A DNA stretch of 64,000 bases from Halovenus rubra. Lineage in GTDB: Archaea > Halobacteriota > Halobacteria > Halobacteriales > Haloarculaceae. Position numbers and translations under genes: made by a program. The notes beneath the pieces were generated by a model. That model did not search any database, was not told where the DNA came from, and saw only the letters and a list, made by a program, of their open reading frames with translations. Position 1 is the stretch's first letter. Each line of letters opens with the position of its first letter. The stretch covers positions 124,001 through 188,000 of the forward strand of contig NZ_JAODIY010000009.1 in the NCBI RefSeq assembly GCF_026586665.1. Reading direction: 5' to 3'. Positions 42,797-58,538 of this stretch are shown here, in pieces.

Positions 42797-42800
42797 GCGG

Positions 42801-43004: not shown

Positions 43005-43243
43005 AGTGTCGACTCAATACGGAGAGCTATTCGGTCTTACGGTCTTTCTTTCGTGAGAGTCAGGAATAATCGGTCACTCCAGTTGGAGACTGACCGCTCG
43101 GAGGGGTCGCAATGACCTGCGAAACCGATCTCGACACAGAACACATGAGCAAGCCGTCGACGCCCGCACTACCGAGCATCTCGTCGACTTAGAACAGACC
43201 CATCTTGACGCCCGCTTCTGGCGTACAGCCTAACAAACGAGAG

Positions 43244-43450: not shown

Positions 43451-44112
43451 CCGATCCACCTCCGGACGACTCCATGGGACTCTCGCTCGAACCGTAGTGT
43501 CACCTCGTCGGTGTCCTTCGGCACGCCGCCCGAGTTCTCTGTCTCGTGCCAAACGTGCGTTGTGTCGTCGTCTCTCACCGTGAGAGCAAATGATTCATAC
43601 TGATATGGCAACAACCACAGCTGGGCTTGAGTCGATCCGTCTTCCGTTTTCCTCACCCGTCCGCTCGTGGGAAATATGCCGGCAGATCGCACCCATTCAG
43701 CATTTGGGATAGGGTCGCCGTGAGCATCTTGAACCGTAACGATAACGTCCCGAAACTCACCGGTCGGGATAACCACGCCGTCCGGTCTTAAGACTGTCTC
43801 ACCGAGCCCGTCGTCTGTGGCATCGAGTGTCTGCACGCTATCGAGGAGAGGCCCACTCTCAAATCGAGTGTGTCTGTGCCCGCTATCGACGGCTTCGGCG
43901 TGGTCGCGGTCGGGGACGTGCTGGCGGCTCAACCGGACCACCTCGACGAGCCAGCCGTCGGTCCCAGGCTGGCCGAGTCTGACACGCGCTCCGGTGCTGA
44001 TTCGGTTGGCGATGCGTTGTGCCCAGTCTGGGAAGCCGACGGTGTCGAAATGCCGACCCTCACGGACCTGGACTGTCCAGAATTGTTCTGTCTTACTTGT
44101 CGCTGTGTGCAT
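43447..44112 (-). CDS. Element protein with beta-rich C-terminal domain
   Basis: This protein has 221 residues from the ATG at 44112. A GTG at 44184 would add 24 residues of a helix-like leader. The N-terminus (E-Q-F-W-T-V-Q-V-R-E-G-R-H-F) and G-A-R-V-R-L-G-Q form one alpha/beta unit. The C-terminal 100 residues are beta-rich, with V-I-V-T-V-Q-D-A-H-G-D-P-I-P-N-A, like a carboxypeptidase regulatory/Ig fold. It is coupled to the small membrane gene downstream by a 4-bp overlap and divergent from the AbrB-like gene. Its role is unknown; a surface or virion function is possible. Confidence 0.5.
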   Translation of the reverse strand: MHTATSKTEQFWTVQVREGRHFDTVGFPDWAQRIANRISTGARVRLGQPGTDGWLVEVVRLSRQHVPDRDHAEAVDSGHRHTRFESGPLLDSVQTLDATDDGLGETVLRPDGVVIPTGEFRDVIVTVQDAHGDPIPNAEWVRSAGIFPTSGRVRKTEDGSTQAQLWLLPYQYESFALTVRDDDTTHVWHETENSGGVPKDTDEVTLRFERESHGVVRRWIG

Positions 44113-44232
44113 CCATACAGGCAAGACGTAGACGAGCGATTCCAAAAGGCGAGGCGCTGGTTTATGTCCAAGTATAAACTCCACATCCCCCAGATTCGGG
44201 CATTTTAGTAGATTCTCTGCCTGCTTCTGTGT

Positions 44233-44475
44233 ATGTCACAGAGTACTGCCGAAACAGCCGTCTTGCAGGCTATCACTGGCGATGGGGCGCTCAGTCCCTA
44301 CGGGACCGCGAAGGTACAAATGCAGGATACGACGGCTTACGCCGCCATTCCTATCGAGGTCGCCTCAGCTTACGATGTCCAGCAGGGCTACGAGGTTCAG
44401 CGGGCTTATCACGCAGAGACGGGCTGTCTTATCAACTGCCTGCGCCCCGAAGTGGACCTGTTCGGGGTGAAATAG
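44233..44475 (+). CDS. AbrB/SpoVT-like small protein
   Basis: This 80-residue protein has a swapped-hairpin-like core. The segment P-Y-G-T-A-K-V-Q and A-Y-A-A-I-P-I-E-V-A, then Q-Q-G-Y-E-V-Q-R, follows the AbrB pattern (x-I-P-x-x-V, then G-D-E-V). It is divergent from the gene at 43447 and could control both. A related but decayed copy lies at 45647-45820. It may be a repressor of the element. The start at ATG 44233 gives a full domain. Confidence 0.55.
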   Translation: MSQSTAETAVLQAITGDGALSPYGTAKVQMQDTTAYAAIPIEVASAYDVQQGYEVQRAYHAETGCLINCLRPEVDLFGVK

Positions 44476-44506
44476 CCGAAGTGAATTGAACGCTGACTTC
44501 TTCTAT

Positions 44507-44695
44507 TTAGTGGTTCCCAATGAGATCTGAGACAAGTTCCGTGAGAATCCACAACGGAAGGATATACATCAACAAAATCGCAACAATTCCAATTGCATCT
44601 AATACTTGATTTTCAGTGGTTCCAGATGCTGTTTGGAGGAAGATCAAAATCACGAACCAAAGTGTGAGGATTTGGACCAATTCGTTTCTTTCCAT
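44507..44695 (-). CDS. Small two-TM membrane protein
   Basis: This protein has 62 residues from the ATG at 44695; an earlier start at 44707 is possible, while the long frame to 44887 overlaps the divergent zinc-ribbon gene. Two hydrophobic helices (about 6-21 and 35-55) leave little loop. AT-rich coding and overlap-free placement make it plausible. It lies divergently beside the TIGR02391 gene and may be its membrane partner, but this is only positional. Confidence 0.45.
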   Translation of the reverse strand: MERNELVQILTLWFVILIFLQTASGTTENQVLDAIGIVAILLMYILPLWILTELVSDLIGNH

Positions 44696-44823
44696 TGCTA
44701 CACACATTGTGATGAGATAAATACGAGTATTTTCTGATTGTCGTCGGATGTAACTGGTTTGATGGCTAATCGGGTACCCCGCAGCGAAATTAATATCCGA
44801 ATTACTCTGTAATATGTTAACAA

Positions 44824-45522
44824 ATGGTCCGAAAAGAATATGACGTAATGCAGGTGTGTTTGGAAGGACACAAAATAACTGGTGCATACAGTAATCCTGA
44901 GTTTCGTCAACCCGCCTGCGAAGAATGCGGCTCTGACACGATTCATCAATGTCCCAATTGTGACGCGGACATTAAGGGGCGGTATCTGGGAGGTGTCATA
45001 GGTGGGACTGGACCTGAAGTAAAAGAGTTCTGCGATCGCTGTGGAGAGCCTTATCCATGGGCCGATGAAGCTGAAGATTTTACAGAAGTCGACTCCTCAG
45101 TACTTGATAACGAACTGGTTGAAAGAAGCATTTCTCAGTATGAAAGTGGACACTACCAGAGTGCAGTTCAGTCCGCATTCATTGTCTTAGAAGAACGAGT
45201 ACGCGACAGGGGAAATTTCGGACGTGATATTCACGGCTCGGATTTAATGACGGAGGCTTTCACGCCAGAAAGGGGGCCGCTTTCTTTTGGCGAAACCGGT
45301 AGCGAGCAGGAAGGAGTAATGTTCTTGTATCGTGGTGCGATGCAGTCATTGCGCAACCCAGCAAGTCATCGGTTTATCGAAGAGGTTGATGAAGAGTATG
45401 CTCGAGACGTGATTCATACAGTGAACCTACTACTCCGACTGATGGAATCAAACACATCCTCGGATACAACCTCTAAGCTTGAACAACGGGCAGAGAGTGA
45501 CGCCGTTAATTCTGATAATTGA
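44824..45522 (+). CDS. Zinc-ribbon (DUF2321-like) protein with TIGR02391/Ymh domain
   Basis: This 232-residue protein has two parts. Residues 12-80 have C-x2-C pairs (C-E-E-C-G, C-P-N-C-D, C-D-R-C-G), a DUF2321-like zinc ribbon. Residues 95-210 are helical and carry the TIGR02391 (Hypoth_ymh) features: Y-E-S-G-H-Y-Q-S-A-V, L-E-E-R-V-R-D, G-S-D-L-M, and a P-A-S-H-R near the end. TIGR02391 proteins are frequent in phage-defence and restriction loci, but the biochemical activity is unknown. This copy is AT-rich and stands alone. Confidence 0.7.
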   Translation: MVRKEYDVMQVCLEGHKITGAYSNPEFRQPACEECGSDTIHQCPNCDADIKGRYLGGVIGGTGPEVKEFCDRCGEPYPWADEAEDFTEVDSSVLDNELVERSISQYESGHYQSAVQSAFIVLEERVRDRGNFGRDIHGSDLMTEAFTPERGPLSFGETGSEQEGVMFLYRGAMQSLRNPASHRFIEEVDEEYARDVIHTVNLLLRLMESNTSSDTTSKLEQRAESDAVNSDN

Positions 45523-45580
45523 ACATCTGCAATGGCCTTACGACTCGCTGTGATGATCAAATATGGGTTTCCGAGAATGT

Positions 45581-45595
45581 CCATAGACCCGGACA
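45581..45595 (+). repeat. 15-bp direct repeat, left copy
   Basis: CCATAGACCCGGACA occurs here and again at 47645-47659, both exact and in the same orientation. Between them lie the decayed AbrB-like gene, the HIT gene and the membrane/TIR pair. Confidence 0.75.
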
Positions 45596-45646
45596 AACGC
45601 CGAGAGACGAGTGAAGCAGACCCTCATCGACATATCTGGACTTTAA

Positions 45647-45820
45647 CCGGAGGGGACCACGAAAGCACAGCAAAACAGCGGTTCGGTGTACGTCGCCGTG
45701 CCGATTGACAAGGTCGATCATCACGGTATCGGACAGGGTGACGAAGTTGAACGAGCCTGCCACGCCGAAACGAACACGCTCCTGGTCTCTCTCGACGGGG
45801 AGCCTCTTTTCGACTTGTAG
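45647..45820 (+). pseudogene. Decayed AbrB-like gene
   Basis: After an in-frame TAA at 45644 the frame reads P-E-G-T-T-K-A-Q, V-Y-V-A-V-P-I-D-K-V, Q-G-D-E-V-E-R-A-C-H-A-E-T and ends L-F-D-L. It aligns almost without gaps to the middle and end of the 80-residue protein at 44233, which has P-Y-G-T-A-K, I-P-I-E-V and R-A-Y-H-A-E-T. No start codon or N-terminus is present, so it is a fragment. The paralogy suggests that two related elements met here. Confidence 0.6.
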
Positions 45821-46024
45821 ACTGTCCAATCAGCGTGTGATAGAATCATTCTTAACCGATCAGGTGTGGAGTGAAATGACTCTTGCAGAAATTCTAGGTG
45901 AATATGATATCTGCACTGGTATACGAGATATAGAGGATGTAGTCAGCAGACGATAAAAATCCCATTCAAAAACCGATTCAGTTGTTGGAATAAACTGTAT
46001 ACTGCCCAGAAGCGAAATCAAAAA

Positions 46025-46453
46025 TTAGCATTCAGTGTCATTTAACCGTTCTTTGATGATTTCCGCGTCAGAGTCCATCTCTGGACGATCCAAGTCCAAC
46101 CGCGGACCTTCCAAGCCAATTTTGTCCGTTTCTGATCTTGGCAACACGTGAAGATGAACGTGAAACACTTCCTGACCGGCTGCTCCCCCGTCTGCTAGCC
46201 AAAAGTTAATCCCTTTACTCTCTATTTCTGAAGCTCTGAGAGACTCAGATATCTTCATCCCCAGTTTAAACAGCTCTCCACCAGTATTATAGCCCAAATT
46301 TGATAGCGAGTCTGCATGTTCTTTTGGTATTACGAGGATGTGACCTCTGGTCATCGGCCGAAGCGTCATCATAGCCAAAGTACGATCATCCTGATAAACA
46401 AGGCTGCTCGGCGCGTCTCCGGCTACAATCTTGCAGAACTCACAATCTACCAT
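46025..46453 (-). CDS. HIT-family nucleotide hydrolase
   Basis: This protein has 142 residues from the ATG at 46453; the start at 46495 adds fourteen unconserved residues. It has F-C-K-I-V-A-G and the histidine triad H-V-H-L-H-V-L-P near residue 98. HIT proteins hydrolyse nucleoside phosphoramidates or dinucleoside polyphosphates. The C-E-F-C start could hold zinc with a later His, as in PKCI-type members. It is AT-rich, like the TIR genes upstream on the same strand, and is separated from the membrane gene by about 106 bp. Confidence 0.88.
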   Translation of the reverse strand: MVDCEFCKIVAGDAPSSLVYQDDRTLAMMTLRPMTRGHILVIPKEHADSLSNLGYNTGGELFKLGMKISESLRASEIESKGINFWLADGGAAGQEVFHVHLHVLPRSETDKIGLEGPRLDLDRPEMDSDAEIIKERLNDTEC

Positions 46454-46559
46454 AGTATTAGTTTTACAGTCAGAAGTTATTATTTGTTCTCCCATTCGTT
46501 ATTTGGTACCGATAAAATACCTCAAATTAAACAAATCAGATTAAGATTATTGGTCGTAA

Positions 46560-46985
46560 TTATATACCACAAATTTCAGGAAGCAACCACAAAAAGAAGA
46601 CAAAAGCCGAATAGACTAATAATAGGATAAAAATCGTTCCGTGGAAAATCGCTAATGACCTTGAGAACATTAATTTGGGGATTGAGTCTACACTATACGC
46701 AGATGAATCCATCTTGAATTTCTCCCTATCTTGGTTTCCTGTCCTTGCGTCCTTGTACATAGCTCGATATCTTCGCTCAAGTTGGAGGTAGTATGCGTCT
46801 AAAATCCAGAATCCGAAGAGTGGTATAAACGCAATCAAGAGATGCAAATCGCTAGTCCGGAAGAGAAGGACTACGACAATAAGAGTGATCGACCATCCTT
46901 TGATTTTAAATAGATTTCCGGATAATCGAGTGATGATATCTTGAATAAATTCAAGATCTTTTGTATGGGGTTCATCGTCGCTCAT
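46560..46985 (-). CDS. Three-TM membrane protein coupled to a TIR-like protein
   Basis: This 141-residue protein has an acidic N-terminus with L-E-F-I-Q-D-I-I-T-R-L. Three hydrophobic segments (31-42, 47-63, 111-134) follow, with a basic loop R-R-Y-R-A-M-Y-K at 71-78. The first part, S-G-N-L-F-K-I-K-G-W, is a recurring pattern in small bacterial membrane proteins that I remember next to DUF1863-type TIR proteins; I cannot verify that here. Its ATG uses the last base of the TIR stop (TAATG), so it is translated with it. A membrane-permeabilising effector is a reasonable guess. Confidence 0.7.
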   Translation of the reverse strand: MSDDEPHTKDLEFIQDIITRLSGNLFKIKGWSITLIVVVLLFRTSDLHLLIAFIPLFGFWILDAYYLQLERRYRAMYKDARTGNQDREKFKMDSSAYSVDSIPKLMFSRSLAIFHGTIFILLLVYSAFVFFLWLLPEICGI

Positions 46986-47470
46986 TACCGGTCAACAATT
47001 TGAGCCGCTTTCTCCACCCAATCTCCTAAATTGTCGTGCCCATTATCGTCTACCCAATCATAGGTATTGAATATAGAAGACAGGCTATCACCTGTATCTG
47101 CGTCGTGATACTTTGACAACGGGTTTTTACCACGTTGATCTCTGTTTTCATCTTCATCTTTTATTTTGTGAATCCTAACACCGACTAACCCCATTCCAGA
47201 TTCATAACTGTTCTCAATTTCGTAGTTTATCCATTTCCTATTGTATGTATCGCTACCAATTAAAACAACCGTGACAGAACAACCCTTCATTTGCTTATCT
47301 ATCCACTCTCGAACTGCATCATCTCCCTCACGTTTTAATGATTCCCAACTTGCGCCATCAATAAATCCTGACTCCTGAACACCTTGGTCGACGACATCTG
47401 AATTCCTGACCTGACTAGCTCTCCAGATATCGTTATCGTAGTGAAAGCTAAAGAATGTCGTTCGTGCCAT
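46985..47470 (-). CDS. TIR-like (ThsB/DUF1863 type) protein
   Basis: This protein has 161 residues from the ATG at 47470; the longer frame to 47629 has no conserved residues. It opens T-T-F-F-S-F-H-Y-D-N-D, typical of the MTH538-like TIR family (pfam08937). It has V-T-V-V-L-I-G-S-D-T-Y, then W-I-N-Y-E-I-E-N-S (candidate catalytic Glu E84), and G-L-V-G-V-R-I-H-K-I-K. In Thoeris systems such ThsB proteins sense phage infection and make a signalling nucleotide from NAD. The usual ThsA partner is not adjacent; the coupled partner is a membrane protein instead. Confidence 0.85.
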   Translation of the reverse strand: MARTTFFSFHYDNDIWRASQVRNSDVVDQGVQESGFIDGASWESLKREGDDAVREWIDKQMKGCSVTVVLIGSDTYNRKWINYEIENSYESGMGLVGVRIHKIKDEDENRDQRGKNPLSKYHDADTGDSLSSIFNTYDWVDDNGHDNLGDWVEKAAQIVDR

Positions 47471-47644
47471 GCGTGTACTTTCATTTAGACAATAATTATA
47501 TTCTTTGGTTAGTTGTAATTGAGATATCAAAATAGAAGCAGTTCTGGTAACACATTTGCGCGTTGTATCTTGCACGCGCGTCTTGACAACACTTAGACAA
47601 GAAAAGCGTGCGAATTTTTTCAGACACACTCTGTCCGCTTCTCA

Positions 47645-47659
47645 CCATAGACCCGGACA
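47645..47659 (+). repeat. 15-bp direct repeat, right copy
   Basis: This is an exact copy of 45581-45595, lying directly between the TIR gene's upstream region and the integrase promoter. Confidence 0.75.
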
Positions 47660-47722
47660 CTCACAGGGTAAACTGTCGCTGATTCCGGCCTGATCGGCCC
47701 GAGTCACCCCATCGATTCGGAG

Positions 47723-47729
47723 GTTTATG
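47723..47729 (+). promoter_or_regulatory. TATA-like box of the integrase gene
   Basis: GTTTATG is centred about 30 nt before the ATG at 47756. The gene is likely to have its own promoter and a leaderless transcript. Confidence 0.45.
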
Positions 47730-47755
47730 TCCGACTTCCCCACCATTACGGATGG

Positions 47756-48343
47756 ATGAACCTCGAAGACTACCCCGAAGATGACGGAAAGAAAGTGTGG
47801 CTGTCCGAGCGAGAAGTACAGCAATTGCTGAACAAACTCGACGACACCATGCAGAGCGCCGCGGTGAAACTCGGCGTTCGGTGCGGCCTACGTACGCACG
47901 AGATCGTCGAAGTCGCACCTCAACATGTCGCCGACACTGACGCCGGGACGATGCTTCGAGTGTGGGTGTCCGCGAAGACCAATCACTATCGAGAGACGCT
48001 AATCCCGCCGGAGTTCGCAACCACCATTCAGACTACCGACGGCGTCCGTGATGAGCCCGCTGACGCACCGCTCGTCGACGTGACGAAGCGGACGCTTCGG
48101 CGCTGGATGGAAAACGCCACCGAGCAACTGCAAGAGGAGACGGACGATCCTGGCTGGCAGTTCGTCGGCTTCCACGATCTCCGGCGGACGTGGGCAACCC
48201 AGCTCCGGAGTGCCGACGTTGACGCGATGGTTGTCTGTGATTGGGGCGGCTGGGAAAGTCTTGAAACCTTCCTCGACCACTACCGCGGTACCCACACCCC
48301 GGAAGCCCAGCGATGGGAACGTCAGAAAGTCGACTGGCTGTAA
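47756..48343 (+). CDS. int: Short tyrosine integrase (IntSNJ2-like)
   Basis: This 195-residue recombinase lacks the N-terminal core-binding domain of ordinary phage integrases, but the catalytic set is complete: R46, K74, H140-x-x-R143, W166 and the nucleophile Y176 in D-H-Y-R-G. The end is K-V-D-W-L, as in related haloarchaeal enzymes. It resembles the short integrases of the pleolipovirus SNJ2 family, which act at tRNA genes with help from neighbouring small proteins. An ATG at 47752 is out of frame. It sits about 120 bp from the right repeat, ideally placed to act on it. Confidence 0.85.
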   Translation: MNLEDYPEDDGKKVWLSEREVQQLLNKLDDTMQSAAVKLGVRCGLRTHEIVEVAPQHVADTDAGTMLRVWVSAKTNHYRETLIPPEFATTIQTTDGVRDEPADAPLVDVTKRTLRRWMENATEQLQEETDDPGWQFVGFHDLRRTWATQLRSADVDAMVVCDWGGWESLETFLDHYRGTHTPEAQRWERQKVDWL

Positions 48344-48461
48344 GGCTATTTGTCGCTCTTGCGACTAACCGCGAACCGCATTATCCAGTGTAGGTATTGG
48401 CTGATTGCGTGTGTCTATTTCTCCATTGAGAGACTGCTGCCCAACCCAAGCTATTTCCCAC

Positions 48462-48650
48462 AGTCCACTACCTTTCCTCCGTCGTATCCAGGGTACACTA
48501 CCGCAAGGTAGGAGTTCTGTAACGGCCGGATTCGTCATTTTTGGGCCAAGAAACAATCCCTCAGTAAAGTGGGTTTAACAAAAATTGGACGCGGGTAGCC
48601 GCAGTCACGCGGTTTTTGCAGGGAATTGGAAGTGGTCGAAGTGACCCGTA
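48462..48650 (+). repeat. Right copy of 188-bp direct repeat
   Basis: This copy aligns ungapped with 39450-39638. Only AGTCCA of the tRNA end is repeated before the shared downstream sequence, so the tRNA itself is not rebuilt here. Downstream of GTG at 48641 the zinc-gene frame seen in the left copy is not continued. Confidence 0.9.
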
Positions 48651-48932
48651 AGCGGATTTCACCACAGAAGACCTCGACGAGAATGGATGTGATGTTCTGC
48701 TTAGCGAACACCTCACTAATCACTGAGAGTGGATACTGATCGGTCGAATCAATCGTCAGAACCAATTGGACAGTGAGCGTACTCTGGATTTGGGACTCCG
48801 GCATCTAACACCTGAGCAGCTCCCTTCTTGAGACGTATCAACTGCTACCTCGTTGCAGTGAGTAGCGACGGAACTCTAAACGGTTTTGCGACGCGACCGG
48901 TTTTTATTGCTTTAGGAAGTATATCTGATTTG

Positions 48933-49865
48933 ATGGTCAAGCCACTATGTCTGGCGGCAGACCAAAAACGTGGTACATCTCCCATTATCGGGAACATCTT
49001 ATTACTGGCCATTGTTATTGTTCTGGCAGTTGTAATGGTCACATTGTCCCTAAGTTTCCTTGAGGGACTACAACCCAAGTCCCCCAATGTAGTGACCGAT
49101 GGCACAATCACCGATGGCGAAATCAGGTTCGTGCATAGATCTGGGGTCAATCTAGACACCTCGAATCTCGAAGTCGTCGTGAGGACGCAAGATGAGACGA
49201 AACGTGTGCCCTTTTCTCAGGGGACACTGACTGGAGAAGAGACATCTTTCAGTGCTGGCAACCGCTGGCGCTACTGTCAGGTTGCAGAACCTGGATCAGA
49301 GGTCGAAACAACGCTTGTTCACACACAGTCTAATTCTGTTCTCTCGAAGATCGAACAGTCCGCACAAGAGACACAGAAGACCGGGCTTGAGTACCGATGT
49401 GGTTCCGCTGCGCGTCGTAGTGGCCGTGGCGGTGGCTGGGCGACATTCTCGATGAAGAACTTCGCAACTGAAGATGTTGATATTGAGACAATTAAACTCT
49501 CCTCAGATACTGAAGCCACGAAATTAGATGGATTGAACGAAAGCGGCGTTGACCATACTGAAGTTTACATTGATGCTAACGGCGATGAAGTATACAACTA
49601 CCCCCCGGAAGATGCGTATGCATATGCTTCCGGATCAGCGGATTATACTATTGGTTCGAAAATCGATGTAATATCCGTTGGTACATCAAATAACTACGCG
49701 AGTATTCAACCCGGTGCAACTGCTCACTTTTCACTCTATCAATTTCAAGATGCGTCCGACAACTACGCCGACATACGTGGAGCAAAGCTTACAGTGACAA
49801 TCTACTTTATTGATCGTCCTCCCCGAACGTACTCAATCATCTTACCCCGAACACTGAGCGGTTGA
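48933..49865 (+). CDS. Archaeal type IV pilin-like secreted protein
   Basis: This protein has 310 residues from the ATG at 48933; an upstream in-frame start at 48828 adds unlikely sequence. The N-terminus is Q-K-R-G-T-S-P-I-I-G-N-I-L-L-L-A-I-V, the class III signal of archaeal pilins, cut after G in the R-G-T-S-P region by prepilin peptidase (PibD). The hydrophobic helix builds the fibre core. The large soluble domain is rich in Thr, Ser and Asp, with a Gly/Arg patch near residue 175. A TATA-like TTTTTATTG sits about 30 nt upstream. No other pilus genes are near. Confidence 0.82.
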   Translation: MVKPLCLAADQKRGTSPIIGNILLLAIVIVLAVVMVTLSLSFLEGLQPKSPNVVTDGTITDGEIRFVHRSGVNLDTSNLEVVVRTQDETKRVPFSQGTLTGEETSFSAGNRWRYCQVAEPGSEVETTLVHTQSNSVLSKIEQSAQETQKTGLEYRCGSAARRSGRGGGWATFSMKNFATEDVDIETIKLSSDTEATKLDGLNESGVDHTEVYIDANGDEVYNYPPEDAYAYASGSADYTIGSKIDVISVGTSNNYASIQPGATAHFSLYQFQDASDNYADIRGAKLTVTIYFIDRPPRTYSIILPRTLSG

Positions 49866-50024
49866 GCCCCGGTCGAAATAGTGTCATATTCCACATAAAA
49901 TGACGAAGGTCACCGGGTGAGATGACTCATGCGAACCAGGGAAATTGGAACGAAAAAAAATCACGCCGCGGACTGAATAAAGAAACCGTATTTCAACAAC
50001 CGACATTCATCATATTAATGACAT

Positions 50025-51428
50025 TCAAGTATTACAGTATGTCGTATACTCTGCATCGAACTCTCGTGGCGGTGGTTGCTGGAATTGTGAATCCATATCT
50101 TTCGATGTATAGGGATTTTCTACCACGGTTAACAACTCCTCGAATTTGGATAGATTCCCAGTTTCGAGATACTCATCCAGTGCCTCTTCAACCAGATAGT
50201 TGCGGGGGATATACCGCGGATTGGCTTCTTGCATCAACTCCTCATCTAAACCGACAGCAGCCAATTTATGGCGAAGCTGTTCGAATTCTGCAGTTGCAAA
50301 CACTGAGTCATCAAACGTACCAGGCGTCTCTAATTCTAGGAACGTATTGGTGTAGTCTGCGTTCGATCTGCGAAGCCACGCTAAGAATTCATCGACCAGC
50401 TCACGGGAGCCATCTGAGTCGATACCCAGTTTCTTCCGCATCATCGTGTAGTACTGTGCATCAAATCGTTCCTCAAACTCGCCCAGCTTGTTTTCCAGTT
50501 CATCATACGTGAGCGCTGATTGTGTACACAGCGGTTGAAGTGCCTTTGCGAACCGTTCGAGATTCCATCGCAAGATGGGTCGCTGGTTTCCGAATGCATA
50601 GCGCCCGTGCTTATCGATCGAACTGAAGACTGCCTCCTCATCATAATAATTCATGAACGCGCAAGGTCCGTAATCAAATGTTTCTCCATCGACACTCATA
50701 TTGTCCGTATTCATCACGCCATGGATGAATCCGACACGCAACCAGTCAACGACCATCTCAATCGAGGACTGTATGACTGCATCGAAGAACTCTAAGTATG
50801 TGCGATCCGTTTCATCTAGCTGTGGGTAGTGCCTGTCAATAACATAGTCTGTGAATCGTTGTAGCTCGTCGGATGCTTTGCCTGCAACATACTGGAATGT
50901 CCCGTACCGAATGTGGCTGTTCATCACTCGAACAAGGATGGCTCCAGGTTCTGTCCGTCGTCGTTCAACTGCTTCGTCAGTTTCGACGACTGCCAGACTC
51001 CTCGATGTTTTGATATGCAGGTTTTGCATCGCATATGAATACAGATACTCTCTGAGCATCGAGCTGACAGTTGCGTTGCCATCGCCTCGTCCAGAGTACG
51101 GTGTTCGACCGGACCCCTTCAGTTGAATGTCGTATCTATTATCATCGTGTACATGTTCGCCGAGAATTATCGCTCTCCCATCACCCAAGACAGTAAAACT
51201 CCCATACTGGTGGCCTGCATACGCCTGGGCGATTGGTTCTTCCAGGCGGTTCTGGCCTGCGAGAACGTCAGCATCGAGTTTCGCTGCATCCAATCCAAGA
51301 TCAGCACACAGTCGGTCATTACGAACCAATATTTCGGGATTGGCGATACTTTTGGGCGTTACTCTCGAATAAAGATCTGAGTCTATATCTTTGTAAGTGG
51401 TATCAAACGAAAAGGGCATTAGTTTCAT
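50025..51428 (-). CDS. selO: SelO family protein AMPylase (UPF0061)
   Basis: This pseudokinase-fold protein transfers AMP to protein hydroxyls and lets cells respond to oxidative stress in bacteria and mitochondria. The 467 residues keep the ATP site, with L-K-G-S-G-R-T-P-Y-S near residue 100 and R-G-D-G-N-A. The metal/active segment H-G-V-M-N-T-D-N-M-S-V and D-Y-G-P-C-A-F-M are near 240-262. The C-terminus ends Y-C-N-T, giving the penultimate-region Cys often seen in the family. An ATG nine bases downstream is an alternative start. It is an unusual cargo for a haloarchaeal element. Confidence 0.9.
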   Translation of the reverse strand: MKLMPFSFDTTYKDIDSDLYSRVTPKSIANPEILVRNDRLCADLGLDAAKLDADVLAGQNRLEEPIAQAYAGHQYGSFTVLGDGRAIILGEHVHDDNRYDIQLKGSGRTPYSGRGDGNATVSSMLREYLYSYAMQNLHIKTSRSLAVVETDEAVERRRTEPGAILVRVMNSHIRYGTFQYVAGKASDELQRFTDYVIDRHYPQLDETDRTYLEFFDAVIQSSIEMVVDWLRVGFIHGVMNTDNMSVDGETFDYGPCAFMNYYDEEAVFSSIDKHGRYAFGNQRPILRWNLERFAKALQPLCTQSALTYDELENKLGEFEERFDAQYYTMMRKKLGIDSDGSRELVDEFLAWLRRSNADYTNTFLELETPGTFDDSVFATAEFEQLRHKLAAVGLDEELMQEANPRYIPRNYLVEEALDEYLETGNLSKFEELLTVVENPYTSKDMDSQFQQPPPREFDAEYTTYCNT

Positions 51429-51909
51429 ACGATGTTATGTTCCTTGTTTTAATAATCTTGTTTCGGGGCTGTTTCGAATCGAACAATTAGAGAACTTCAG
51501 ATCGGCGTGTATTAGAGACACTCCCTGTATTCAGCACACACCATCTGTTATCTGTAGAACTGTAGTTCGGAACTTGAATAATAAGTACGACTCTGTCTCG
51601 AAAGTCACGCTCGACGGCATTCTCCAGACACTACCAAATTTCTTGGAGTTCCGTGCCAGCATCGACGTCGTCGAAGATGGGATCCGCGAACAGGTCATCA
51701 TGCTGTCAACGATCAAATCGATTCCCTCTAGCCACAACGATTGGCTCAGGAACGTCCGAGGAAAGCCAACGAATGATTGCACCGCGACGAACCGCATGAG
51801 GAGACTGTGATGACGGACATTTCGACGAAACAGAGCCACCAAGCATGGGAGGCCATGCTTGATGCGTGACAAGAATACTCACTCTGGGAACGATATTTAT
51901 TGATTGCCG
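51429..51909. other. Spacer with no recognisable gene
   Basis: One open frame of 137 codons (51397-51810) runs through here, but it overlaps the SelO start region and has no family or haloarchaeal composition. I see no RNA, repeat or promoter. It is probably decayed element DNA. Confidence 0.4.
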
Positions 51910-52134
51910 TCAGCCGACAATCATGCTAAGGGCACCGATGGCACCAATGACCGACATTCCAATCCCCAGTATTCGAGTGAGGCCTACTTTCCAGTCCGCA
52001 GGTTCAACTTCTGACCACGATCGGCGGCTCCCAATGCTGTCAAATTGCTCTTGGAGTCGTGAGAGCTTATACGGCCAGAGGGCTCCAGGGAGACCGAAAG
52101 CTAACAAGACGGGGACTATTATTATGGCTTCCAT
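51910..52134 (-). CDS. Small two-TM membrane protein
   Basis: This protein has 74 residues from the ATG at 52134. The first helix (about 2-16, I-I-I-V-P-V-L-L-A-F-G-L) and the second (about 54-72) flank a polar loop with R-R-S-W-S-E-V-E-P-A-D-W. The pattern W-P-Y-K-L-S-R-L-Q-E-Q-F between helix and loop resembles small bacterial/archaeal DUF6199-type proteins. No function is known. Confidence 0.5.
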   Translation of the reverse strand: MEAIIIVPVLLAFGLPGALWPYKLSRLQEQFDSIGSRRSWSEVEPADWKVGLTRILGIGMSVIGAIGALSMIVG

Positions 52135-52299
52135 ATTGGCTCTCAACAGGTGGGTAGTATAGCTTTTGTGGAACAGCACCATATGCCAGCAGCCGATGAC
52201 GCTTCTTCCAGCCGCAGTGAGGTCGTCATGGACAATAGAAACCGCTGGGTAGAGCCGGGAACACAGCCATCAGGAGCTGAGCGGTGAGGCAGATGACGG

Positions 52300-52859
52300 C
52301 CTCAATTCGATGTTGCCACAGAAAGCAGTCGAGTTGTGGACCCTGACGAGCAGTGTCTCGCGATTAGACACCGACCTGAGACTGCGACGCCGCTGAATCA
52401 TAAGCTCTCTCCAGAGCAATTCGTCGCGGTCGGTACGCATCACGCGTAGATTCGCGAAGATTAGACTGCGGGTAACCGTCACGATATGACCGACGAGTAC
52501 GGCCGCAAGCCGCTTATTACGACCTCTCAGGGGTGGCTTACTGAGGTCCCCATCCGCCAGACGGCCTACAAGTGGACCAGGCCCTGTATGATTTAAGAGT
52601 GCCCACACGACAGGGACCCAGAATCGTGCGAGTGGATGGAGTACACGCAGATGAGTGGCTGCCTATCGTCTCAACCGCCCCACGTGATGCAACGCGGATC
52701 AATGACAATCGACTTCGGGACGGGACACCCGAGGCAGTCATTACCAATCGAGTGAACGTTTCCAGAGACACAGTTAAACAGCACTACGAAAAGCGGACAG
52801 AGCGCGAAAACATGCAGACGCGGTGCGAGCTCTTTGAGGATTTAAACGGAGTTAGATAG
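52300..52859 (+). pseudogene. Decayed phage-type integrase
   Basis: Fragments of a longer tyrosine recombinase can be read in two frames. First come D-E-Q-C-L-A-I-R-H-R-P-E-T and, after two stops, E-Y-G-R-K-P-L-I-T-T-S-Q-G and T-R-P-C-M. Then after another stop come E-C-P-H-D-R-D-P-E-S-C and P-P-H-V-M-Q-R-G-S, the H-x-x-R box. Near 52690 the frame shifts to T-P-E-A-V-I-T-N-R-V-N-V-S and K-Q-H-Y-E-K-R-T-E-R with the nucleophile Tyr. Several stops and one frameshift make it inactive. It is a different integrase family from the short gene at 47756, supporting two elements. Confidence 0.75.
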
Positions 52860-52899
52860 GATCCAACACATTCTTGCGTGTTTAGGATGGCCTAAAAGT

Positions 52900-54096
52900 A
52901 TGCAAGACGATTCCAGTGATTTTGAGGGGCCCACACGACGAGATTACATAAAGTACGGTGGCGCACTCGTCGGTAGCGGGTTGCTTGCTGGTTGTATTGA
53001 CGGAGATGACTTCCAGTCCACGACAACAGAGACAGATTCTACGCCGACCACGACGAGGACAACCGACACATCAACTGAGACGCCGACCGAAGATGGTTCC
53101 TACTCCGTGTCGACAGTACCGGTCGGCGAAGTAAGCTTTGAGTCTGTCCCCGAAACGTGGGTCGCAGAAAACGCCAGTTGGGGAGACATGGGTGTCGCAC
53201 TTGGCTTGGAAAAGCCAAGCGCAGTCGTCCTCACGGGAGAGTATCGGACGTGGGCATACGAAGACATTCCGTCTCTCTCTACAGACAAGGAAGATATGAC
53301 TTCGCTCTGGCAGGATGGCATCTCTAAGGAGACTTTCTTGGATATTGACGCAGGCGTACACTTTATCGACCCGAACTATATGATTAATCTCATCCCCAAC
53401 TGGAAGCGTGCGGATGTTACGGAGATGGCTGATCGTGTTTCTCCTTTCTGTGGCAATACGAACTTCTCGACGTATCCGTGGCACGAGGACTATCCATATT
53501 ACTCGCTGTACGAAGCCACCGAGAAAGTCGCACAAGTATTCCAGCGAATGGACCGCTTTGAAGCGCTTCAGAGGCTCCACAACGAGACCATTTCAGGCAT
53601 ACAGGAACGACTGCCACCCGAGAGCGATCGTCCGGATATCGCGCTGCTCTCCCCAGCATCAGCCGAACCGAAAAAATACTATCCCTACCGACTCGGGGAT
53701 ACGACTGCATACAAACACTGGCATGACCTCGGTGTGAGCGATGCGTTTGAAGATTCAAACATCCAGAGTTTCACCTCCGACCGCGGCACCATCGATTACG
53801 AGACACTAGTCGAGATCGATCCAGAGATAATGATGTTCTACACTGACAAGTATTGGACACGCTCGGAATTCCGTGAGACGTACCTAAGCTTCCTCCAAGG
53901 TCATAACGTAGCGAACCAACTTAGCGCGGTCAAGAACGGAGAAGTCTACCGGGCAGGCGGGATGTATCAAGGCCCGATTATCAACCTCGCAAAGACCGAG
54001 CGTGCTGCAAAACAGCTATTCTCCGACATCTTTGATCAAGACGAACGGCTGTACAGTCGCCAACGAATCGCCGATATCCGGAACGGAGATATTTAG
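52900..54096 (+). CDS. Iron/cobalamin-type ABC substrate-binding lipoprotein
   Basis: This exported lipoprotein has 398 residues. R-R-D-Y-I-K-Y at 13-19 is a Tat motif, and the lipobox L-L-A-G-C puts the lipidated Cys at about 32. A Thr-rich linker (40-65) follows, probably glycosylated. The remainder is a class III metal-chelate-binding fold: V-P-E-T-W-V-A-E start and D-P-E-I-M-M-F-Y in the second lobe. These proteins capture Fe-siderophores or cobalamin for a FecCD/BtuCD importer. No permease or ATPase is adjacent, so it is an orphan that may serve a transporter elsewhere. Confidence 0.88.
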   Translation: MQDDSSDFEGPTRRDYIKYGGALVGSGLLAGCIDGDDFQSTTTETDSTPTTTRTTDTSTETPTEDGSYSVSTVPVGEVSFESVPETWVAENASWGDMGVALGLEKPSAVVLTGEYRTWAYEDIPSLSTDKEDMTSLWQDGISKETFLDIDAGVHFIDPNYMINLIPNWKRADVTEMADRVSPFCGNTNFSTYPWHEDYPYYSLYEATEKVAQVFQRMDRFEALQRLHNETISGIQERLPPESDRPDIALLSPASAEPKKYYPYRLGDTTAYKHWHDLGVSDAFEDSNIQSFTSDRGTIDYETLVEIDPEIMMFYTDKYWTRSEFRETYLSFLQGHNVANQLSAVKNGEVYRAGGMYQGPIINLAKTERAAKQLFSDIFDQDERLYSRQRIADIRNGDI

Positions 54097-54424
54097 CGTA
54101 GAAGACGCTGTCATTGTACTGGGTCCTATTAGAGAGCAATTTCAACAACTCCCACAACAAGTGTACGGGACTGTCCGAAACACGTGCGTGCCCGGAGTCT
54201 AAGTATACTGTTGGTTAAATATCAAAACACGGATTCGACAGCCGGTCGTTGATAATAGCCATTATTATTCTGACTGGAATTGTGCGCTATATCCAGTGGG
54301 TAAACTCTCTGTGTGTCAGTGCAGTCAGCGAACGATAGAAAGCTAACAGGAGGTGAGTGCTGATCTTGTCTTTATCATCTGGTGATATGAAAATAAAACG
54401 ATGGTTTTTGTATGAGACACTAGC
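54097..54424. other. Gene-free spacer
   Basis: The 328 bp after the binding-protein gene contain no frame with coding character and no RNA I can recognise. AT-rich stretches occur in the second half. Confidence 0.4.
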
Positions 54425-55132
54425 TCAAAGCAAAAGAGAGCTAAAAGCGTATAGATTGACCAGTGCATGAGCGATTGCTGGTGCTAATATCGTGTTATGG
54501 TGCTGGTACAGATACCCGAACAGACACCCCTGAGGAAAAAGAAAAAGAATCGTCACGACCATCGACGTAGCTCCTCCAATGTAGAATAACGAGGCATACA
54601 GCAAAGCGAAGGCTGTGCCCGAAACCAGTATTGCTCCACCCGCTGACAGCGAGGTTCTCGCGTGTTCCTGCAAGACGCCACGGAAAAACGCTTCATGAAC
54701 CAGCGGTGTTAGCACCACTGCACCAATAAAAAGAACAGGTGTGCCGAAGTTTACTGCGGGGTCGAATCGCAACGCGATAACTGTTATACCATCAACAAGA
54801 CTCGCTCCCCACAGCAACTCACCAACACCAGCAAGTACGATTCCTGTAGCGACACTGCTCACTACCGTTCGACCCCCAATTGGGTTGGCGAGAAGGGAGC
54901 GAAATTTTCTCCCGATGATGCGTGTGTACCAGGTGACGATAATGGACGCTGAGATGACGTGGGCCCACGTCACTATCGTGTCGTACTGCCACCGTTCCAT
55001 TCCCCAGATGAACATAAACGGAAGCATCAAAACGCCCGGAAGCATATACCAAGCAAATCCGAGCCCCGCAACCCCAAGAAGAGTTGACTTGGGTCCAGCT
55101 ATCCGGCTTTGCTGGACCGAGGCCACCGCCAT
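54425..55132 (-). CDS. CPBP-family intramembrane metalloprotease
   Basis: This protein has about 235 residues from the ATG at 55132. A longer frame to 55288 adds 52 atypical residues. Six to seven hydrophobic helices are seen. The CPBP motif 1 is V-H-E-A-F-F-R-G: one Glu is kept, while the usual preceding Glu is His. Motif 2 includes F-A-L-L-Y-A-S, where a typical His is missing, and the last motif A-P-A-I-A-H-A-L-V-N-L keeps its His. It may therefore be weakly active or inactive. The family includes bacteriocin self-immunity and prenyl-processing enzymes. Confidence 0.8.
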   Translation of the reverse strand: MAVASVQQSRIAGPKSTLLGVAGLGFAWYMLPGVLMLPFMFIWGMERWQYDTIVTWAHVISASIIVTWYTRIIGRKFRSLLANPIGGRTVVSSVATGIVLAGVGELLWGASLVDGITVIALRFDPAVNFGTPVLFIGAVVLTPLVHEAFFRGVLQEHARTSLSAGGAILVSGTAFALLYASLFYIGGATSMVVTILFLFPQGCLFGYLYQHHNTILAPAIAHALVNLYAFSSLLL

Positions 55133-55705
55133 CTCTTGAAGGGTGACACGGTTTTCTATAATTTTCTGTAGGAATCCCACTCTATCACTCACTGGCTTTA
55201 GAAAGCATATAAATATAGGGAAACGTTCACACGCTGTGTTCAAATTCGGATTGGAAAGTGAGGCATAGCGTGGTCTGCGTGGCCCCACCCGAAAGCGCGC
55301 TACTAATATCTAAGACCAGTGAACCGGTGGGCTCGGTACTCAGGGGAGGACCGTATCGACTACTGCTGTTGACTACGCGGTCTGCGTGGTTCACTGCGTT
55401 ATTGATGGCTGTTAGATGAATTGCCACTCGTTGCGGTGTGTGTTTGGCCTGTACTGACTACCTACCGGACAGTTGTCGAGAACGTCTCTGGCCCGTTGTA
55501 TAACTTCTTGAGTGGACACAACGCTCATGCTTATCCCACTGAGTGAAGGAACCTAATACACAGAGACCAACGCGACCTGTAATAAGACACGCAATAGCTC
55601 ATAACTTGGGCAGGCGACGACCGGAGCTTTCGACTGTATTAGGTATGTAACTTCAACTCATACCACCCTCTGTTTTATTCAGGTCCCACGAAAAGTGGTT
55701 TTTGG
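55133..55705. other. Gene-free spacer, likely island boundary
   Basis: The 573 bp between the CPBP gene and the methyltransferase hold only fragments, among them a 38-codon minus-strand frame near 55410-55530 without family. The shift from AT-rich accessory DNA to core-like coding falls here, so it may contain the right edge of the island. No copy of the tRNA end repeat was found. Confidence 0.4.
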
Positions 55706-56422
55706 ATGTCATCTGACCCGTTTGGTCGTGCACTCCGCGACCACTACCGCGACGAACGCGAGGAACCGCTGCAACAGCGAGACGGTGAGGAAGTTATCGA
55801 ACACCCAATTGAAGAGTTCTACTTCGGAGAGTTTACTGCCGACCACGAGTGGGCAGGGTGGCTCGAATCCCGTCTTCAGGGGCCACTACTAGATTTGGGT
55901 GCTGGCGTTGGCAAACACGCGTTGTACTTTCAAGAGACGCTTGATACCGTCGCTCTCGAAGTCAGCGACGACCTTGTCGCCGTAATGGACGCTAGAGGCG
56001 TCGAACACACTTGCCAGGGAGATATGTTTGACCTTCAGGACCACTTCGAGCGCGACCAGTTTGGCTCTGCACTCGCGTTTGGGACGCAGGTCGGACTCGC
56101 TGGGTCGATGGACGGTCTCCGCACGTTTTTGTCGGACTTGGCGTACGTAACTCAACCTGGCGCAACTGCTCTCGTGGACTGTATTGACCCCAAGCGCAAA
56201 GGAGTCTCTGAACTGCTCGGCTACCGACCTGACCCGGCTCCAGGGCTTGCCTTTCGTGTTATGACCTTTGCCTACGCCGGAACAACGAGTGGTATCCTCC
56301 TGTTTCGGCTGTTCAGCCCGAATAGAATCGAAGAGGCGACGGTCGGTACCTGCTGGGAAGTTAACGACATCAGATACGGTGATGAGTCGACAAGCCACTA
56401 CGTTGCTGCGCTCTCAAAGTAG
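55706..56422 (+). CDS. Class I SAM-dependent methyltransferase
   Basis: This 238-residue protein has the Rossmann methyltransferase core. Motif I is L-L-D-L-G-A-G-V-G-K-H near residue 62, followed by the acidic residue of V-A-L-E-V-S at the end of strand 2, and A-L-A-F-G-T-Q-V-G-L as strand 4. The N-terminal 45 residues form a substrate lid with D-H-Y-R-D-E-R-E-E-P-L-Q. The target (small molecule or macromolecule) cannot be told. The gene stands alone between the island and a convergent peptidase. Confidence 0.85.
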   Translation: MSSDPFGRALRDHYRDEREEPLQQRDGEEVIEHPIEEFYFGEFTADHEWAGWLESRLQGPLLDLGAGVGKHALYFQETLDTVALEVSDDLVAVMDARGVEHTCQGDMFDLQDHFERDQFGSALAFGTQVGLAGSMDGLRTFLSDLAYVTQPGATALVDCIDPKRKGVSELLGYRPDPAPGLAFRVMTFAYAGTTSGILLFRLFSPNRIEEATVGTCWEVNDIRYGDESTSHYVAALSK

Positions 56423-56542
56423 TCCGTGCAATCGGGATACAACGCACTCGAACAGTGCGCGTTCATACCTCTGCTTGGGGCGGCTGGGGTGGCCGGAGAA
56501 AAATAACAACTGCATAACGAGTTTCGGCAGTTTCCAACTCGC

Positions 56543-57853
56543 TTAGCTAATATCGAGACCCTGTGCTTTGGCCCGCTCCTCGATTGTTTTCGCGTCGACA
56601 TGCTGTGGTTCTCGTTTGTCTCTTGCCAGTTCGGCAACGCCGGACGCGACGAGGACGGCGAGGTCACGGAAATCTCGCTTATCCAGTTTGTCAAGGGTGT
56701 CTGCATGGGTGTGGCCCCAACCCCTGTCATCTGAATCAGAGGCAGAATGGGCCATCAAACCGGGAACGCCGTTCTTGACGAACGGCCAGTGGTCGCTGTG
56801 TGGAACAATCTCGTCATCGACTTCAATTGGTGTCTCTAGTGACTCGCTTACGGCTTCGAACGCTGAGGTAAGTTCGTCGAACCCGTGCGTTCCGACAGCA
56901 AGCGTCCGACTGCCTCCAATCGCATCGAGGTTGATGATTGCCTTGATGTCGTCGAGAGGTCGCGTGTCCGCCATGTGGGCGGACCCGCGTAGGCCGATTT
57001 CCTCTGCGCCGAACGTGACGAATTCTACGCCGACAGTGAGGTCGTCTTCAATTTGTGAGAGTAACCGTGCAACTTCACAGACGAGCGCGGAGCCTGCGCC
57101 GTTGTCTTCGGCTCCTTCGGCGATATCGTGGGCGTCGTGGTGTGCGCTGACAAGGAGTCGTTGTTCGGTATCCGGTCCGAGGACGCCTGAGACGTTCCGA
57201 GAAGCCGTCTTCTCGTTGCGACAGTCCACTGACAGCGTCGCCCTAAGGGGCTTGCCTTCACAGTGGCGGACGAGTCGGTGGCCAAGTTCCCGCGAAACAC
57301 CGACCGCCGGAATGTCGCCTGGACCATTTTCTTGATGGATTCCACCTGTCGGCGGAAGACAGCCTTCGACGTGGTTTCGGAATACGAACCCGACTGCCCC
57401 AGCCTCAACTGCTGCCTCGTACTTCTCTTTTCGATGAATCCAGCGGTCATGAGTTTCGGGAGTCTTGCTTGATGCCATCGCAATCGCTCCATCGAGATCT
57501 GCTGTCTCGAACTCTGCTGGGGTGCCGTGACCGACATCGACGAGTTCGGCCGACTGGTCACCTTTGGGCGTCCCGGGAAGTGAGAGTACCTGATGTTGCT
57601 GAACGTAACTCCGTTCTTGCTCGGGCAGCCCAAGCGCGGAACTTTCTCGCCACCAGCCCGGGACTTCGAACTCCTCGACAGCAACATCACGGAGTCCGAC
57701 CTCCTCAAACGTCGATGCGATACATTGTGCCCCATCCCGTTCACCATCCTGTCCTGCCATCCTGTTCTCGATATCAACCAGAGACGTAAGCGTCTTCCAG
57801 GCAATCGAGTTACGATACGCATCACCGATGACCGCATCAGGGAGACGTGCCAT
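56543..57853 (-). CDS. M28-family zinc aminopeptidase
   Basis: This 436-residue metallopeptidase keeps the family metal set: S-A-H-H-D-A-H-D (His/Asp), N-G-A-G-S, F-G-A-E-E-I-G (catalytic Glu and zinc Glu), N-L-D-A-I-G-G, and G-H-T-H-A-D near the end. A PA-type insert at about 100-190 precedes the metal domain, as in aminopeptidase Y and glutamate carboxypeptidases. There is no signal peptide, so it is probably cytoplasmic and acts on peptides. It is divergent from the UPF0200 gene. Confidence 0.92.
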   Translation of the reverse strand: MARLPDAVIGDAYRNSIAWKTLTSLVDIENRMAGQDGERDGAQCIASTFEEVGLRDVAVEEFEVPGWWRESSALGLPEQERSYVQQHQVLSLPGTPKGDQSAELVDVGHGTPAEFETADLDGAIAMASSKTPETHDRWIHRKEKYEAAVEAGAVGFVFRNHVEGCLPPTGGIHQENGPGDIPAVGVSRELGHRLVRHCEGKPLRATLSVDCRNEKTASRNVSGVLGPDTEQRLLVSAHHDAHDIAEGAEDNGAGSALVCEVARLLSQIEDDLTVGVEFVTFGAEEIGLRGSAHMADTRPLDDIKAIINLDAIGGSRTLAVGTHGFDELTSAFEAVSESLETPIEVDDEIVPHSDHWPFVKNGVPGLMAHSASDSDDRGWGHTHADTLDKLDKRDFRDLAVLVASGVAELARDKREPQHVDAKTIEERAKAQGLDIS

Positions 57854-57986
57854 ATCGTCACAACTAGTCCATACTCCCTGAATCTATTGGTCACAGCAAG
57901 CCGGGTGTGGTTCCATGGAGAGAGAAAGCGTGACGAACAGAGTGCCTTCGCAGTGCTTATCTGGCGGGTAAGCTAACCACTGTGCG

Positions 57987-58538
57987 ATGACAGTCATCGG
58001 AACGGTTGGGTTGCCCGGAAGCGGAAAAAGCGAAGCTGCTACGGTCGCAGACGACTTGGGGGTCCCAGTCGTTACCATGGGAAATGTGATTCGTCAGGAG
58101 TGTCGCGACCGGGGACTTGACCCCGCGACTCACCACGGCGAGATTGCGAAGACACTCCGTGAAGAAAATGGGCCTGACGCAATCGCCGAACGGTCGCTTC
58201 CAATTATTGAATCCAAACTCGAAAAAGCAGAGACGGTTGTTGTCGACGGCATCCGTTCTGATGTCGAGGTTGCTGCTTTCACGGAAGCGTTTGGGGACGA
58301 GTTCACGCTGGTAAGTATCGAAGCACCCTTTGAGACGCGGGCAGAACGCCTCGAAGTTCGTGGCAGAGATGCCAACGCGGAGGAAGGCGGCGAATCACTT
58401 GCTGAACGTGACGAGCGCGAGCGTGGCTTTGGTATGGACGACGCGATGGCTCAGGCAGACCTCGTCATCGAAAACGATGGAAGTCTTGTTGCGTTCCACG
58501 ACCGAATCCACACGCTTCTGACCGAGGAACACTCATGA
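57987..58538 (+). CDS. UPF0200 P-loop nucleotide kinase-like protein
   Basis: This 183-residue protein has Walker A G-L-P-G-S-G-K-S at 8-15, a mid-protein V-V-D-G-I-R-S-D that matches the nucleoside/CoA-kinase LID region, and a basic R-A-E-R-L-E-V-R-G-R near 110. It is the archaeal UPF0200 (COG0237-like) family, related to dephospho-CoA and adenylate kinases. The phosphate acceptor is not known. The stop overlaps the start of the UPF0201 gene by 4 bp. The pairing is common in archaea. Confidence 0.88.
   Translation: MTVIGTVGLPGSGKSEAATVADDLGVPVVTMGNVIRQECRDRGLDPATHHGEIAKTLREENGPDAIAERSLPIIESKLEKAETVVVDGIRSDVEVAAFTEAFGDEFTLVSIEAPFETRAERLEVRGRDANAEEGGESLAERDERERGFGMDDAMAQADLVIENDGSLVAFHDRIHTLLTEEHS

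Follow-up and report, generated by a model that had tools for sequence, protein, structure and literature searches.

A haloarchaeal selO gene and a family of transposase-free cassettes that may have carried it

Gene exchange across families is frequent in haloarchaea, and how the genes travel is mostly guessed. The closest described systems are the mobile insertion cassettes and MITEs that a related IS moves in trans (PMC3129680) and the PATEs, MITEs and SMRs of Haloquadratum (PMC3119063). In the relevant passages of the Haloquadratum paper, PATEs are described as having neither inverted ends nor target duplications, and four of the five MITE families as non-coding. The PATE passages of a paper on Halorubrum viruses and their hosts make no mention of SelO (PMC10544981). 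SelO belongs to the SelO/YdiU family (PF02696), also called UPF0061. Among the key features of SelO, the consulted part of a review lists Asp262 and a Cys272-Cys476 disulphide (PMC8097203). According to the excerpted text of a 2012 survey, the family occurred in 3 of 107 archaeal genomes, for which horizontal transfer was proposed (PMC3281104). Among the open-licence PubMed Central papers listed by our searches, judged by titles and the starts of abstracts, none describes such haloarchaeal cassettes, their ends or a role for archaeal SelO. Here, we analyse a selO gene in a 64,000-nucleotide stretch of haloarchaeal DNA (the window) and compare it with selO loci (L) in other genomes (G). The SelO enzyme itself is ordinary; the interesting part is the cassette family.

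The selO gene, its product and its surroundings

The preliminary description had placed a SelO gene with intact ATP-site motifs at 50025-51428, and this proved correct: that interval is an unbroken ORF of 467 codons (467 aa) on the minus strand, on whose identity Pfam, NCBIfam, the PDB and the predicted fold agree. The ATG at 51419 is more likely to be the start than that at 51428, because most tblastn matches to other haloarchaeal selO copies begin at residue 4, the in-frame position of the first ATG is mostly unconserved across the aligned upstream DNA, in one relative the two candidate ATGs are separated by an in-frame stop, and annotated haloarchaeal copies start at the residue matching ATG 51419. 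The gene and the features on its downstream side are:

39384-39456, plus strand: tRNA-Ala(GGC), the gene at which the neighbouring element is integrated
39450-39637, plus strand: left direct repeat of that element, 188 bp, 91% identical to 48462-48649
47756-48343, plus strand: tyrosine recombinase of that element, 195 aa, short (PF00589, 1.6e-14)
48462-48649, plus strand: right direct repeat of that element; selO lies beyond it
49861-50007, no strand assigned: dispersed repeat of ~147 bp, adjoining the 3' end of selO at the position expected for the right cassette end
50025-51419, minus strand: selO coding sequence, 464 aa from the preferred start; 51428 is the alternative ATG

The product of the window gene is a full-length member of the SelO/YdiU family, and its catalytic residues are intact. 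Pfam SelO (PF02696) matches residues 6-435 (E = 1.5e-106; 357 bits, cut-off 22.8), the NCBIfam YdiU subfamily model (NF000658) is passed with 465 bits against a cut-off of 431, and sequence matches to SelO/YdiU proteins in the PDB have E-values of ~1e-76 to 1e-78. Scores for the two NCBI equivalogs named "protein adenylyltransferase SelO" were below cut-off (NF040880, 308 vs 900; NF045949, 333 vs 850). The model predicted from 22 sequences (alignment A2) had a mean pLDDT of 85 and a pTM of 0.90, superposed on P. syringae SelO (6eac) with a TM of 0.87 and also matched the YdiU-NAD structures 9jyn, 9l29 and 9jym. Throughout these 22 sequences R85, K104, E127, R167, D242, N243 and D252 (window numbering) are invariant, as are C256 and C465, the latter three residues from the C-terminus. 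We take K113, E136, R176, D252 and N253 of P. syringae SelO to be the equivalents of K104, E127, R167, D242 and N243, respectively. D252 of the window protein corresponds to D262 in the numbering of the review passages cited above (PMC8097203). As for the cysteine pair, the activation-loop Cys272 aligns with a Ser, the C-terminal Cys (C465) is kept, and the invariant C256 lies nearby.

These residues are compatible with an active nucleotidyl transferase. Conservation and fold together make a pseudokinase of the SelO/YdiU type, which would bind ATP and transfer AMP to proteins under redox control, the most likely reading. That NAD+ hydrolysis or UMPylation, not AMPylation, is the main reaction is a lesser possibility, although one with several points in its favour: human SelO is reported to be an NADase that needs its C-terminal Sec/Cys, as quoted from a 2026 commentary (PMC13391479), the corresponding C465 is present and invariant in A2, the predicted model matches the three YdiU-NAD structures, and Salmonella YdiU is reported to be a UMPylation enzyme (PMC13355359). 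However, the AMP-transfer residues are conserved to an equal degree, and the SelO copy of G278 lacks the C-terminal tail.

The left 188-bp repeat begins within the 3' end of the tRNA-Ala gene, and the integrase gene lies directly inside the right repeat. The interval 39450-48649 is a 9-kb element integrated at tRNA-Ala and bounded by these repeats. It holds, at 46025-47629, adjacent genes for a TIR protein (ThsB / PDC-M50B), a small membrane protein (PDC-M50A) and a HIT protein (ThsC-like), a row that is a candidate Thoeris-like defence set. The right repeat is 1375 bp from selO, which places selO outside the only bounded element found. Its earlier placement "inside integrated DNA" therefore fails for the tRNA-Ala element. 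The DNA around selO does vary, and it is flanked by two gene blocks that are conserved among same-genus genomes (two or three compared). G002, G003 and G004 retain the left block (CheF-GlmS side), with the CheF match missing from G003; the right block (methyltransferase, M28 peptidase, kinase, CPBP, ABC) is kept in G002 and G004 and partly in G012. Pieces of the ~147-bp repeat, 75-83% identical and with nearly the same ends, occur in five haloarchaeal plasmid records, and we read this repeat as MITE-like.

Distribution of selO and its transfer among haloarchaea

The preliminary description had proposed transfer of selO, an idea to be abandoned if the gene were widely and vertically present in Halobacteria at one locus. 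Instead, its presence is patchy: with the source genome counted, the family was found in 34 of 391 Halobacteria genomes (16 of 86 genera) and in 4 of 18 genomes of the same genus, and a sample of the phylum gave 5 of 294, all five within the same order. Almost no flanking DNA is common to the window and other selO loci. Three of the 34 genomes (G217, G263 and G378) have broken or split copies, and the match in G089 is shortened. In Natrarchaeobaculum sulfurireducens AArc-Mg (L320:6001-8808), an IS4-family transposase gene interrupts selO.

Most intact copies are ~81-92% identical to the window SelO at the protein level, four divergent ones 68-74%, and the closest bacterial proteins among the matches listed ~42-46%. 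In a FastTree phylogeny, for which the program flagged long branches, all haloarchaeal SelO proteins group in a single clade with a support of 100 and a long stem. The phylogeny thus delivered the one haloarchaeal clade but no close bacterial sister, and the indications of a bacterial origin are indirect. The window SelO is sister to that of G304, from a different family (99), and one tight group mixes members of three families.

Silent-site and G+C comparisons used 32 coding sequences, a set outside which G217, G263 and G089 fall. At four-fold degenerate sites, the 56 different-family pairs of the main clade, which leave out the divergent branch (G116, G278 and G241), had an identity of 0.72 in selO vs 0.42 in GlmS, a reference with paralogues in several genomes for which best hits were taken. 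With the divergent branch included, the values for all 90 different-family pairs were 0.61 and 0.41, selO being higher in 76 of the 90; the extreme was G176-G331, with 0.95 in selO vs 0.37 in GlmS. The mean G+C content of selO is 48.7%, compared to 58.1% in the flanks, and selO was lower in 32/32 loci. In most of the listed pairs the gene is ~80-93% identical while the flanks are unrelated, with the exception of a few groups of near relatives. The patchy spread, the unshared flanks, the low G+C and the high cross-family silent-site identity all support recent transfer of selO within the haloarchaea, across families.

No neighbour is conserved in all selO loci, and 240 of 277 neighbour clusters are confined to one locus; some of these ORFs are spurious, as the ORF finder was mechanical. 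Twelve haloarchaeal plasmid records contain selO, one copy being broken. L317, L318 and L319 have almost the same plasmid genes around selO (TnpB genes, an AAA ATPase and a sliding clamp) across families, their hosts being Halorientalis (Haloarculaceae) and Haloplanus and Halobellus (both Haloferacaceae). Viral carriage was considered and rejected: the single window protein had no match in viral_contigs; an alignment search of the same set gave three contigs at 41-45%, and SelO matches in phage records reached only 34-39%. A SelO-like gene, matching over ~300 residues at 38-39% identity, is present in seven Microcystis phage/cyanophage records of the MaMV group (H65-H71). The second copies in G380 and G396 were considered as proof of gene-level mobility and rejected, since they are part of long, 99.96-100% identical duplications of their surroundings.

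The selO unit and the transposase-free cassettes

Loci were compared in a set of 35, which omits G012 (cut by contig ends), G378 (two contigs) and the second copies in G380 and G396. Across 43000-60000 of the window, other selO loci align only over the gene, an upstream block and a few downstream bases, except for a 55-bp match in L044 and, in L042, a repeated copy of the gene's tail. For the nine best matches listed, homology ends at most 18 bp past the stop codon, and on the promoter side it extends for 39-120 bp. Two features lie on the promoter side:

51449-51455, minus strand: TATA-like TTATTAA inside the conserved upstream block, 30-36 nt upstream of the preferred start
51519-51536, minus strand: cassette end motif TGCTGAATACAGGGAGTG, one mismatch to the consensus TGCTGAATACAGAGNG; left end of the selO unit

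The TATA-like element, as TTATTVA at -38..-35, recurs in 24/35 loci, against a null rate of 0.0022. In one group of seven genomes from three families selO forms a discrete unit: homology extends from about -98/-127 to +127/+160 and then ends, reaching further only among near relatives, and its outer limit coincides with the motif TGCTGAATACAGAG or TGCAAGATACAGAG upstream and with the inverse downstream. At up to two mismatches, the end motif is present upstream in 13/35 loci (null 0.0009) and absent there in 22/35; inverted, it occurs downstream in 7/33 (null 0.0083). Six further named plasmid loci had the upstream motif in 0/6 at up to three mismatches and the downstream motif, at exactly three mismatches, in 4/6. 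Both outer tips are kept in one of the 35 loci, G063, with a 6/8 target duplication, and one clear outer tip is kept in two more (G331 and G278). Long inverted repeats around selO were rejected, as local alignment of upstream against downstream DNA beat shuffled sequences in only 2/35 loci. In the window, the outer tip GGCTCTGTTGAAAT was not found beside the motif at 51519-51536. A mobile insertion cassette has two tips and a duplication, whereas the window copy keeps the gene, its promoter and, of the ends, the promoter-side inner motif only. With neither outer tip nor other end, we interpret the window copy as an old insertion, probably immobile, and a relic rather than an intact cassette.

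Similar ends bound other genes. The exact 16-base pattern is present in 102 of 242 genomes of the class; reversed, it occurs in no genome listed. From 90 loci fetched because they hold the motif (some overlapping, and one being a selO locus), so that the end counts are no survey, we obtained 92 ends consisting of the tip GGCTCTGTTGAAAT and the inner motif, with 25 inverted pairs before removal of repeats; reversed or block-shuffled controls gave two ends and no pairs. There are 19 unique cassette pairs. In 18 of these the spacing from tip to inner motif is ~38 (37-40) at one end and ~43 (42-44) at the other, while in L190 it is 43 at both. A target duplication of at least 7/8 flanks ten of the 19; L242 reaches 8/8 after a one-base shift, and eight fall short of 7/8. 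Seventeen of the 19 carry an ORF of at least 100 aa (107-383 aa). Pfam gave names to eight of the 17 main cargo ORFs: an aldo/keto reductase, a GNAT acetyltransferase, a Na/Ca exchanger, BrkB-like and ABC-2 membrane proteins, an FAD oxidoreductase, a luciferase-like monooxygenase and a methyltransferase. One more had a weak DUF2207 match below cut-off, eight had no match, and no transposase family was found by Pfam among the 17. An SDR and a histidine kinase are encoded in further motif-bounded loci, which failed the strict pairing.

These generic cassettes have the features by which mobile insertion cassettes are recognized, namely IS tips, a passenger gene, no transposase found and the same duplication length. 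Having inverted ends and duplications, they are by definition not PATEs. One cassette (L211:3134-4742) lies within an IS5-like (ISHxa2-like) transposase gene and is flanked by a 7/8 target duplication, which makes it useful as a marked insertion.

The interrupted transposase belongs to the IS5-family ISHxa2 group. In Halostagnicola larsenii, both ends of an IS copy bear the tip GGCTCTGTTGAAATCCTC, and its 8-bp duplication is AGAAGCTC; in G396, the two ends of a copy match the tip with zero and two mismatches, and the duplication is GTATCAGT; and a G031 copy with internal stops has a 7/8 duplication. Target duplications were thus found in three of 17 IS copies examined, one of the three with internal stops. 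Among 36 selO genomes, 32 have a relative of the transposase at E ≤ 1e-30, and in at least 13 this relative is at least 78% identical over at least 240 residues (one with internal stops); relatives in the window genome are only 35-43% identical. IS6 was tried as partner and rejected, since 0/12 PF13610 loci from eight genomes were tipped at both ends; IS6 loci L266 and L275 have a cassette-type end near one edge. Because tips and duplication length match, an IS5/ISHxa2-type transposase is the most likely agent moving the cassettes in trans.

Candidate vehicle, possible cellular role and comparison with known systems

We consider it moderately probable, at roughly 0.6, that selO was passed to this genome from other haloarchaea in the form of a small transposase-free cassette, with mobilization in trans by an ISHxa2-type transposase. 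Such a cassette would consist of the gene, its own promoter and short inverted ends, and would be one member of a larger haloarchaeal family of transposase-free elements, most of which carry one gene. The transposase, supplied in trans, would move cassettes tipped with GGCTCTGTTGAAATCCTC and generate 8-bp target duplications. We infer that selO travelled in this way rather than on plasmids alone, and that the window copy is an old relic that has kept its promoter-side end motif and lost its outer tip and other end. For the broader proposition, that haloarchaea share a class-wide pool of cassettes, most with one gene and all with asymmetric ends of the IS5/ISHxa2 type, moved in trans by resident ISHxa2-type transposases, with selO as one of them and, in several lineages, beside SufB, ferredoxin and KorB genes, we see about even odds.

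A competing account is that selO spreads solely via megaplasmids and homologous recombination, the end motifs being co-copied remnants of small insertions nearby. The 12 plasmid records, the near-same neighbourhood in Halorientalis, Haloplanus and Halobellus and the absence of recognizable tips from most selO loci are all consistent with this account. It is nevertheless rather unlikely, as the flanks are unrelated in most listed pairs despite genes ~80-93% identical, the promoter-side motif stands at a near-constant distance in many lineages, and its inverse downstream is far above chance. The preliminary description had also suggested a role in host-element conflict, with selO acting for the neighbouring integrated element against host or rival proteins. 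The gene does lie 1.4 kb from an element carrying TIR/ThsB-like, PDC-M50A-like and HIT/ThsC-like genes, but these belong to that element, selO lies beyond its direct repeats, no PADLOC model matches SelO, and other loci align with 43000-60000 only over selO, its upstream block and a few downstream bases, apart from the 55 bp in L044. We regard this role as very improbable. Ancestral presence in haloarchaea with many losses, although compatible with the single clade in the tree, is the least credible account, given the cross-family silent-site identity, the G+C, the gene tree, the absence of a common locus and the restriction of the five hits in the 294-genome sample to one order.

The neighbourhoods of selO point to a cellular role. 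In 8 of the 35 loci, an accessory sufB is found no more than 6 kb from selO (midpoints within 5 kb). These loci represent five lineages in our grouping, for which the chance probability is ~5e-6 under uniform placement, though both gene sets favour plasmids. All eight loci have a small ORF with two CxxC pairs and no Pfam or NCBIfam match, which we label zinc-ribbon-like; ferredoxin is present in five and KorB in four. Profiles were run on the G004, G396 and G165 copies. Some accessory sufB copies are broken, e.g., that in G368, and pairs of SufBD hits elsewhere in the same eight genomes were read as the core sufB-sufD. The accessory sufB lies beside selO in L067, L035, L050 and L316, accompanied in L035 and L316 by ferredoxin and the 2-oxoacid:ferredoxin oxidoreductase beta subunit. 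For L067, L035 and L050, the genome has its core suf locus elsewhere. One strand in Halorubrum ezzemoulense carries, in succession, sufB, ferredoxin, a hypothetical gene, the oxidoreductase subunit and selO, and in Haloarcula sinaiiensis selO lies between sufB and cytochrome oxidase subunit I; both loci probably fall within lineages already counted. No sufB was found beside selO in the window or in five other named plasmid stretches. The redox role suggested earlier thus draws on other genomes, with no such neighbours in the window itself. Because these accessory genes sit beside selO in some other genomes, a redox or Fe-S role is favoured, if only hinted at, and the benefit of selO is likely to be help with redox or Fe-S stress. 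If the proposed pool is real, SelO beside SufB, ferredoxin and KorB would protect or tune Fe-S metabolism.

Short ends that bound single genes, 8-bp duplications and a match to a common IS amount to a concrete, searchable vehicle. Spread by cassette would explain how an originally bacterial selO keeps moving among haloarchaea, and it offers a testable account of this regulator as a recurrent accessory gene (16 of the 86 genera sampled). If the proposed class-wide pool exists, archaea would have their own equivalent of mobile insertion cassettes, and accessory genes would pass from one family to another mainly, or in large part, by this route.

Compared with described systems, the window protein resembles the SelO/YdiU adenylyltransferases in its full-length family match, predicted 6eac-like fold, catalytic residues and Cys three from the C-terminus, and differs in scoring below the narrow SelO equivalog cut-offs. 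In place of the activation-loop Cys272 described in the passages of PMC8097203, it has a Ser, with the invariant C256 instead. The cassettes have the GGCTCTGTTGAAATCCTC tips and 8-bp duplication in common with the ISHxa2 group, which however has its own transposase and, in the end sequences examined, no inner TGCTGAATACAGAG motif. As transposase-free haloarchaeal repeats they are akin to the Haloquadratum PATEs, MITEs and SMRs, but the generic cassettes carry ORFs of 107-383 aa between inverted ends, in contrast to the PATEs and MITEs as portrayed in the consulted passages (PMC3119063). The likeness to mobile insertion cassettes and MITEs moved in trans, as sketched in the excerpted source (PMC3129680), lies in the IS-like tips, the passenger gene and the 8-bp duplication. 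The generic cassettes differ from them in being haloarchaeal and of the IS5/ISHxa2 type, with unequal end spacing (~38 vs 43 in 18/19), and the selO units differ in that most are without outer tips.
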